From positions 62,001-126,000 of the forward strand of contig JAKLKC010000002.1 in assembly GCA_023150875.1 (NCBI GenBank): 64,000 bases of DNA, given 5' to 3'. The DNA is from Myxococcota bacterium. Its GTDB lineage: Bacteria; Myxococcota_A; UBA796; UBA9615; JAKLKC01. The notes under the pieces were generated by a model, which saw only the letters and a list, made by a program, of their open reading frames with translations, was not told the origin of the DNA and did not search any database. Each line of letters opens with the position of its first letter. Within the stretch, counting starts at the first letter, position 1. This document shows, piece after piece, positions 30,251 through 33,374 of this stretch. A program made the position numbers and the translations under genes.

Positions 30251-32061
30251 GGCGGGCGGCCGTCGCGTGGCGAAGCGGCCCCCGGTCGGGGCTCGGGGCG
30301 GCGCTGCTCCTCCTCGCCCCCACGTCGGCCCTGGCCGCGGACCCGCCCGACGCCGAGCGGGCGGTGCTCCCCATCGGATCCGTCGTGGACGTGGCGGCCT
30401 CCCTGGACGGGCGCCTCGTCGCCGCGGTGACCCCGGGTACCCTCACGGTGCTCGACCTGCACGACCCCGCGGGGGGCGAGGTCACGGCGTCCATCTGCGA
30501 CTCCCCCAACGCCGTGGCCCTCTCGGTCACCGGCGGGACGGAGCTCCGGGCCTGGATCGCCTGTGGCGGCGCGACCCTCCAGTACGTCCCCATCGACGCC
30601 ACGGGGGACCTCGCCGCGGTCTCTACCGCCATCGACATCGCTGTGGGGGGCGAGGACCTGGTCGCCCTCGCCGCCTCGTCCGACGGCGGCCAGGTCTACG
30701 TGGCCGAGGCGAGGGACGGCCTGTACGACCAGGTCCACGTCGTCGTGGCCGAGACCGAGGAGGTCGATCCCGACTCCACCACCCCCCTCGCCCTCACCCA
30801 CGAGATCGGGGCCCTGGTCATCGATCCCTACGACGGCTGGTTGATGGCGGCGGGCTCCGACGGCCGCCAGACCACGCTCACGCTGGCGGGGGAGGTCGTG
30901 TACGCCGGCACCCCGACGATCCTCTACTCCGGCAACGCGCTGGTGGACGGCGTCGCGCTGGACTCCGTCACCGCCTACCTCCTGGACGGGACCGACGGCG
31001 CGATCTACGCGGTCTCCTCCGGAGGGTACGGCACCTACACCACCCTGGCCATCGACCTCGGCGCGTCGAGTGCCATGGTCGCGGTCACCGGCGAGGACGG
31101 CGTGGACCGCTTCTTCGTCGCCGAGGACGAGGGGACTGTGCGCCCCGTGGACCGGACCACCGGGGAGCTGGGCGCCACGGTCGACCTCTCCAGCGCCGCC
31201 GATGCCCTGGCCGCCACCCCGGCGGAACACGGCCTCCTCTTCGCTGGGACCTCCCAGGGGCTGGCGGTGCTCGGGGCTGGCCCCTGGGTGGAGGTCCTGT
31301 CCGTCGACCCCGAGGTGGTCGGGGGAGACCAGGACGTCACGCTGACCTTCACCAGCGACGAGGACGGCGCGTACCAGGTGTGCTTCGGCGCCGCTCTCAC
31401 GGCCTCCGAGGCGGACTGCTCGGGCCCGGAGGGCTCGGTCTCGGCCGGCGAGACCGCCTCCGTGACCGTGCCCCTGACCGCCCTCGACGAGGGCACCCAG
31501 GTCCTGACGGTCTTCGTGGCCGACGACCTGGGGAACGAGGGGCACGACGCCATCTCCATCGAGGTGGACACCCCTCCCGACCCGGTCACGGACCTGGACG
31601 CCGGCTTCGGCGACTCCAAGCTGGTGGTCACCTTCGCCCGGGGCGAGGAGTCCGACATCGTGGGCTACCGCCTGTACTTCCGGGACGGCGAGGTGTCCGA
31701 GGCCGACGGGGCCCCCGACTTCCAGTACCGGGAGGGCGGCGCGGGGGTCTCGTCCCCCCTCTGGGTGCCGCAGCCGGCGACAGGTACGACGGTGCAGGCC
31801 ACCATCGCCCCCCTGCAGGACCACGTGCTCCACTGCGTCGCCGCCTCGGCCGTCGACGCCTCGGGTCAGGAGGGCCCGTGGTCCGCGGGGGACTGCGACA
31901 CCCCCGCTCCCACCGGGGGCTGGAGCGCCCACTCGGGCGAGGCGTCGGGGGGCTGCTCCGCCGCGGGGCCCGGCGGGGCCGGTCGCGGACCCGCGTGGCT
32001 CGTGCTGTGCGCCGCCGTGACGGCCCTCCGGCGGGCCGCGAGGGTCCGGCCGGGCCGGTGA
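30247..32061 (+). CDS. Secreted beta-propeller/Fn3 surface protein with MYXO-CTERM-like tail
   Basis: A 604-residue exported protein. A signal peptide (GLGAALLLLAPTSALA) is followed by repeated blades of short beta segments (about residues 35-330). An Ig/Fn3-like part follows; DTPPDPVTDLDAGFGDSKLV is a typical Fn3 opening. The C-terminus has Gly-Gly-Cys-Ser, a Gly-rich spacer, the hydrophobic segment AWLVLCAAVTAL and an Arg cluster, which is the layout of the MYXO-CTERM surface-sorting signal. No enzyme motif. Coupled to asd by GTGA and to truA by another GTGA overlap. Confidence 0.7.
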   Translation: MRRAAVAWRSGPRSGLGAALLLLAPTSALAADPPDAERAVLPIGSVVDVAASLDGRLVAAVTPGTLTVLDLHDPAGGEVTASICDSPNAVALSVTGGTELRAWIACGGATLQYVPIDATGDLAAVSTAIDIAVGGEDLVALAASSDGGQVYVAEARDGLYDQVHVVVAETEEVDPDSTTPLALTHEIGALVIDPYDGWLMAAGSDGRQTTLTLAGEVVYAGTPTILYSGNALVDGVALDSVTAYLLDGTDGAIYAVSSGGYGTYTTLAIDLGASSAMVAVTGEDGVDRFFVAEDEGTVRPVDRTTGELGATVDLSSAADALAATPAEHGLLFAGTSQGLAVLGAGPWVEVLSVDPEVVGGDQDVTLTFTSDEDGAYQVCFGAALTASEADCSGPEGSVSAGETASVTVPLTALDEGTQVLTVFVADDLGNEGHDAISIEVDTPPDPVTDLDAGFGDSKLVVTFARGEESDIVGYRLYFRDGEVSEADGAPDFQYREGGAGVSSPLWVPQPATGTTVQATIAPLQDHVLHCVAASAVDASGQEGPWSAGDCDTPAPTGGWSAHSGEASGGCSAAGPGGAGRGPAWLVLCAAVTALRRAARVRPGR

Positions 32062-33296
32062 GCGAGGTCCGGCCCCACCCCGCGGCGGAGGGCGTCGAGG
32101 TCCGTCGCCTGCGCCTCCTCCTGGAGTACCGCGGCACGGCCTTCCACGGCTGGCAGCTCCAGCCGGGCCTCCCCACGGTTCAGGGGGTCCTGGAGGAGAA
32201 GCTCGCCGTCCTCTGCAGGCACCCCGTCCGGGTCCACGGAGCCGGACGCACCGACGCCGGAGTGCATGCACTCGGGCAGGTCGCCCACTTCGACACCTCC
32301 GCCCCCATCCCCACGGAGCGCCTCGCCGCCTCCCTCGCCGGGATGCTCCCCGACGGCCTCACCTGCCTCCAGGTCGACGAGACCGGCCCCGACTTCGACG
32401 CCCGAGGATCGGCGTGGGGCAAGGTCTACCGCTACCGGATCCTCAACCGCCGAGCCCGGCCCGTCCTGGACGCCGGACTCGCCTGGCACGTGTCTCGCCC
32501 CCTCGACGTCGATGCCATGCGCCGGGCCCTGAGACCGCTGCTGGGGCGCCACGACTTCAGCGCCTACCGCGCCGCCGACTGCCAGAACCGGGATCCCGTG
32601 AAGGAGCTGCGCCTCGTCGAGGTGGTGGGGGAGGACGGAGGGCCGATCCACCTGGAGTTCGAGGGGAGCGGATTCCTCAAGCAGATGGTCCGGAACCTCG
32701 TGGGGACCGCGGTGGAGGTGGGCGGCGGCCGGCGCCCCCCGGAGGAGATGGCGGAGGTCCTGAGGGGCCGGGACCGGACCCGGGCGGGTGCCACCGCGCC
32801 CGCCCACGGCCTCTACCTGGCGCGGGTCATCTACCCCGCGCCCTGGGCCGGTCCGCCCCCACCTCGCCCCCGGCTGGTGGGGGCCCACCACGTCGCCCTG
32901 AAGGTCCGGGACGTGGAGGGTGTGGCCTCGTTCTGGGCCCGGACCCTGGGCCTGCCCGTGGTGGCGCGCCACTTCCTCCCGGACGGAACGCCCCGCTCGA
33001 TCTGGCTGGACGCGGGGATCACCCTCATGGTGGAGCGATCGGGGGCGCCGGAGGACTCCCCCGGGGGAAGCGGCCCCTTCGCCGCTGACCCCCCGGGATA
33101 CCACCTGCTCGCCCTGAGGGCCCCGGCCGCGGACCGGGCCCCTTGGGAGGCCCACCTCGCCCGCTCCGGCGTGCCGGTGGAGGGCAGAACGGGCTCCACC
33201 CTCTACCTGCGGGATCCCGAGGGGAACCGGATCGGGCTGTCGTGCTGGCCCGCGACCTGGGAGACCGCCCCCGCTCCCGGTGGCGGTGGGCGGTAG
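32058..33296 (+). CDS. truA: tRNA pseudouridine synthase A fused to a VOC (glyoxalase-like) domain
   Basis: A 412-residue protein in one open frame. Residues 1-265 are TruA, which makes pseudouridine at positions 38-40 of tRNAs: EYRGTAFHGWQLQPGLPTVQ, GAGRTDAGVHALGQVAHF with catalytic Asp66, and KMVRNLVG-like FLKQMVRNLVGTAVEVG. From about residue 272 a second domain begins with GAHHVALKVRDVEGVASFW and ends with YLRDPEGNRIGLSCW, a VOC/glyoxalase-type module. Ordinary TruA ends near residue 250-270. The VOC role is unknown. Starts inside the stop of the preceding gene. Confidence 0.92.
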   Translation: MSEVRPHPAAEGVEVRRLRLLLEYRGTAFHGWQLQPGLPTVQGVLEEKLAVLCRHPVRVHGAGRTDAGVHALGQVAHFDTSAPIPTERLAASLAGMLPDGLTCLQVDETGPDFDARGSAWGKVYRYRILNRRARPVLDAGLAWHVSRPLDVDAMRRALRPLLGRHDFSAYRAADCQNRDPVKELRLVEVVGEDGGPIHLEFEGSGFLKQMVRNLVGTAVEVGGGRRPPEEMAEVLRGRDRTRAGATAPAHGLYLARVIYPAPWAGPPPPRPRLVGAHHVALKVRDVEGVASFWARTLGLPVVARHFLPDGTPRSIWLDAGITLMVERSGAPEDSPGGSGPFAADPPGYHLLALRAPAADRAPWEAHLARSGVPVEGRTGSTLYLRDPEGNRIGLSCWPATWETAPAPGGGGR

Positions 33297-33328
33297 GGGA
33301 CGGGCTGGACCCGAGGGCCGAGGGGCGG

Positions 33329-33354
33329 GGGAGGGGTGGGGCGCCACCCCTCCC
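33329..33354. terminator. Hairpin between convergent truA and FYDLN genes
   Basis: GGGAGGGGTGG-type arm pairs with CCACCCCTCCC across a GGCG loop, 11 bp. It lies between two converging genes, so it can act on both strands, though U-tracts are lacking. Confidence 0.55.
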
Positions 33355-33374
33355 GCGCCGCGGTCGGGGGGAGG

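Follow-up and report, generated by a model that had tools for sequence, protein, structure and literature searches.

The window analyzed here, a 64,000-nucleotide stretch of a Myxococcota genome, contains in its sequence a fusion of the tRNA pseudouridine(38-40) synthase TruA with a VOC domain. A single open frame on the plus strand, running from a GTG at 32058 to a TAG at 33296 with no internal stop, encodes 412 residues comprising, in this order, a complete TruA, a proline-rich linker and one VOC domain. With a probability of about 0.72, we consider that a VOC gene formerly standing alone came to lie behind truA, that the truA stop was lost, and that the product is a fused 412-residue protein carrying the VOC domain as a passenger. 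We based this reading on the domain matches, the single TruA of the genome, synteny, the standalone VOC homologs and their tree, and two confidently modelled folds joined by a low-confidence linker. The fusion is probably real and looks like a curiosity of one lineage.

The TruA domain (residues 1–259, 32058–32834, plus strand) was delimited by domain matches and alignment, and its GTG start codon overlaps the stop codon of the preceding gene within the sequence GTGA. It matched TIGR00071 (E = 9.8e-54, 182.4 bits for a cut-off of 142.85, profile positions 2–228 of 228) and PF01416 (E = 5.5e-38), and E. coli TruA structures matched at E of about 5e-53. The similarity spans about residues 15–260. 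The catalytic aspartate is residue 66, within the GRTDxGVH motif, and was invariant in the 34 sequences aligned. These results agree with the preliminary description, which had reported a complete TruA with catalytic Asp66 continuing without a stop into VOC, and had called for a domain search of both halves; the TruA and VOC models each scored above their curated cut-offs. The protein shares with TruA (TIGR00071; PDB 2nqp, 1dj0) the full-length match, the catalytic aspartate and the invariant residues, and its gene shares its chromosomal neighbourhood with same-order truA genes. Tyr259 is the last conserved TruA residue, at which most same-order TruA proteins end; unlike an ordinary TruA, the window protein runs about 150 residues beyond this usual end, into another domain. 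Since a search of the host's own genome returned one TruA match only, and the catalytic and other invariant residues are kept, the TruA part has most likely retained its activity on tRNA, the formation of pseudouridine 38-40, as judged from its sequence. A second, weaker TruA match (E of about 1e-22 to 1e-29), possibly a paralog, was observed in six other genomes of the class (G051, G055, G057, G023, G010, and G050).

Past the TruA alignment lies the linker PAPWAGPPPPRPRLVGA (residues 260–276, 32835–32885, plus strand), followed on the same strand by the VOC domain with its two beta-alpha-beta modules (residues 277–399, 32886–33254) and by a low-complexity C-terminal tail with the stop codon (33255–33296). 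The coding pattern is kept through VOC, with G+C fractions by codon position of 0.75/0.59/0.93 compared with 0.80/0.50/0.93 in TruA; the pattern is less clear in the linker (0.93/0.86/0.79), which offers only 14 codons and is proline-rich. The VOC part matched PF18029 (E = 5.5e-7, 30.6 bits) and PF00903 (E = 4.9e-5, 24.1 bits), the similarity spanning about residues 276–396. None of the NCBIfam Fos and glyoxalase models came near its cut-off. The HHVALK and DPEGN motifs noted earlier were found to start at residues 277 and 386. Modelled alone with AlphaFold and 37 homologs, the domain reached a mean pLDDT of 85, and Foldseek gave FosA, FosB, and lactoylglutathione lyase as the nearest solved folds (probability 1.00, TM of about 0.6). 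With these members of the VOC superfamily it shares the two beta-alpha-beta modules, the first-module His and Glu, and a length of about 120 residues; it differs in being only about 20–25% identical to them and in being fused to TruA.

The metal site sets the domain further apart. Whereas the first-module residues His278 and Glu326 are invariant in the VOC subfamily, the second-module ligands of FosA and glyoxalase I, which we take from established knowledge to be a His and a Glu, are absent. At the place of the Glu, after DPEGN, the window protein has Gly393 and the subfamily Gly or Ala; the His place, which is not kept in the subfamily, falls on Leu350 in the FosA alignment, with His349 adjacent. 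Because of these two places, the domain is predicted to lack the metal site of FosA or glyoxalase I type metalloenzymes. In the DNA, the two VOC modules begin with stretches (32885–32917 and 33101–33133) that are 76% identical over 33 bases, which could be either an echo of internal duplication or an effect of shared composition.

The position of the extra DNA is well defined by the neighbouring genes. At this locus the order is asd, truA (with a loosely conserved gene directly upstream), a reverse FYDLN_acid gene (PF09538, 33375–34025, minus strand), a BNR-repeat gene, rplM, rpsI, and pyrG (CTP synthase); the names asd, rplM, and rpsI are assigned on what we take their sequences to encode. 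The same order was found in five same-order genomes, one of which has a contig ending before asd and one of which gave no match for the loosely conserved gene, and largely so in one genome of another family. In these relatives, truA is directly followed by the FYDLN_acid gene. The truA stop lies 18–44 bp before this convergent gene in four of the five same-order genomes, overlaps it by 4 bp in the fifth, and lies 22 bp before it in the genome of the other family. In the window, about 460 bp extra, made up of linker and VOC, separate the last conserved TruA codon from the stop, with 78 bp from there to the FYDLN_acid gene. As truA of the relatives ends beside the FYDLN_acid gene, VOC appears as an addition at the truA 3' end; an ancestral fusion lost in all relatives is possible but less simple. 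Insertion as an integron cassette or with repeats was considered and rejected, as no flanking repeats were found beyond one short pair of 12 nt and the resemblance of the two VOC modules to each other. A 16-nt inverted repeat in 33324–33359, between the two convergent genes, is possibly a terminator.

A possible source for the added domain exists in the phylum. The subfamily of the window VOC was found in 81 other phylum genomes, and its standalone members (L077, L079, L085, and others) are 45–50% identical to the window VOC, with the pattern HHxAL / RS-W / ER / RDPEGNR--S in common. They differ from it in that none of the fetched genes stands beside truA: no full-length TruA was seen within the 1.5-kb flanks of 29 newly fetched VOC loci, and nine loci revealed no recurrent gene neighbour. 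In the tree, the window VOC falls among the phylum homologs, branching alone next to 21 of them, a placement that points to no particular donor. In the host genome, a single VOC of this subfamily passed the threshold, and three other Glyoxalase_6 matches lie elsewhere.

The fusion itself was sought in related genomes. A TruA match was present in all 57 other genomes of the relatives set, and among the matches listed none ran on into a VOC domain. Across the phylum, 355 of 379 genomes had a TruA match at the threshold, and the matches listed for these 379, which are the stronger ones, contained no second fusion. Neither the five same-order loci nor 21 distant loci showed one, and our literature search found no paper on such a fusion. 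The TruA match of G026 partly extends to query residue 389, but this TruA stops 31 residues past the alignment and its locus is also without a VOC match, so G026 was rejected as a second case. The fusion is thus rare, as the preliminary description had proposed. The condition that it had named as speaking against the fusion, that no other genome show it, did come out in that direction, in a comparison of low power because the set contains no further genome of the host's family. Against the fusion reading stands the fact that it was seen in one genome, the sole member of its family examined; most likely, the fusion is lineage-specific. In two Gemmatimonadota genomes, TruA reads stop-free into a PDZ-containing serine protease of the Do family (HtrA/DegP) (L044:5001–7202 and L046:2911–5187, 734 and 759 residues), either another TruA C-terminal fusion or a stop-less gene pair.

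We then weighed the junction itself. An indel introduced into the linker by sequencing or assembly could have joined two overlapping genes, a truA ending near 32901 and a voc gene starting at GTG 32877. A one-base shift (frame +1) after the linker meets a TGA 11 codons on, at about 32899, which would leave truA overlapping a VOC gene started at that GTG, a quite ordinary two-gene arrangement. The C-rich linker holds two runs of five C within 32850–32872, and the in-frame GTG is placed where standalone VOC proteins start. A protein begun there would open with MGAHH, much as some of the standalone relatives do. We nevertheless regard this as unlikely, since the long conserved genes of the window (SecA, CTP synthase, RpoN, and PtsI) read intact, which argues for a low indel rate. 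Only Tyr259 (32832) and Trp263 (32844) among the junction codons are one substitution from a stop.

Rather improbable, too, is that the DNA is correct and that internal initiation at this GTG (32877–32879, plus strand) yields VOC as a separate product, in addition to the fused chain or predominantly. The codon lies three codons before HHVALK, and several conserved genes of the host genome also have no Shine-Dalgarno match at their assumed start. However, no Shine-Dalgarno-like sequence lies upstream of GTG 32877, nor is there a truA stop to release ribosomes and permit coupling. That VOC directly regulates or extends TruA, for instance by metabolite binding that tunes tRNA modification, is very unlikely: it is physically fused to the genome's only TruA, but by a flexible linker, in a fusion that does not recur in the other genomes searched, and its standalone relatives keep no recurrent neighbour.

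According to the favored insertion and fusion reading, a standalone VOC gene of the subfamily common in the phylum would have entered the space between truA and the convergent FYDLN_acid gene in the host lineage. Loss of the truA stop would then have joined the two in frame, giving a 412-residue chain whose TruA part would still be active in tRNA modification. In the full-length AlphaFold model, TruA is confident and the linker is not (residues 269–278 below 50), suggesting a VOC tethered to TruA by a flexible linker; the VOC part of this model was built without homologs, and therefore the packing of the domains is not readable from it. E. coli TruA is homodimeric, so each enzyme dimer would carry two VOC copies. 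Most likely, VOC is a passenger that has a small-molecule role of its own and takes no part in tRNA modification.

So far, the fusion holds little mechanistic surprise. That a metabolite-sensing VOC within TruA makes tRNA pseudouridylation respond to a small molecule in this lineage is highly improbable. Seen in a single genome, the fusion is chiefly a curiosity and a warning to annotators. Should it be genuine and maintained in the lineage, a nearly universal tRNA-modifying enzyme would there carry an unusual accessory domain, and this would offer a direct way to ask what the common, unassigned VOC subfamily of this phylum does.
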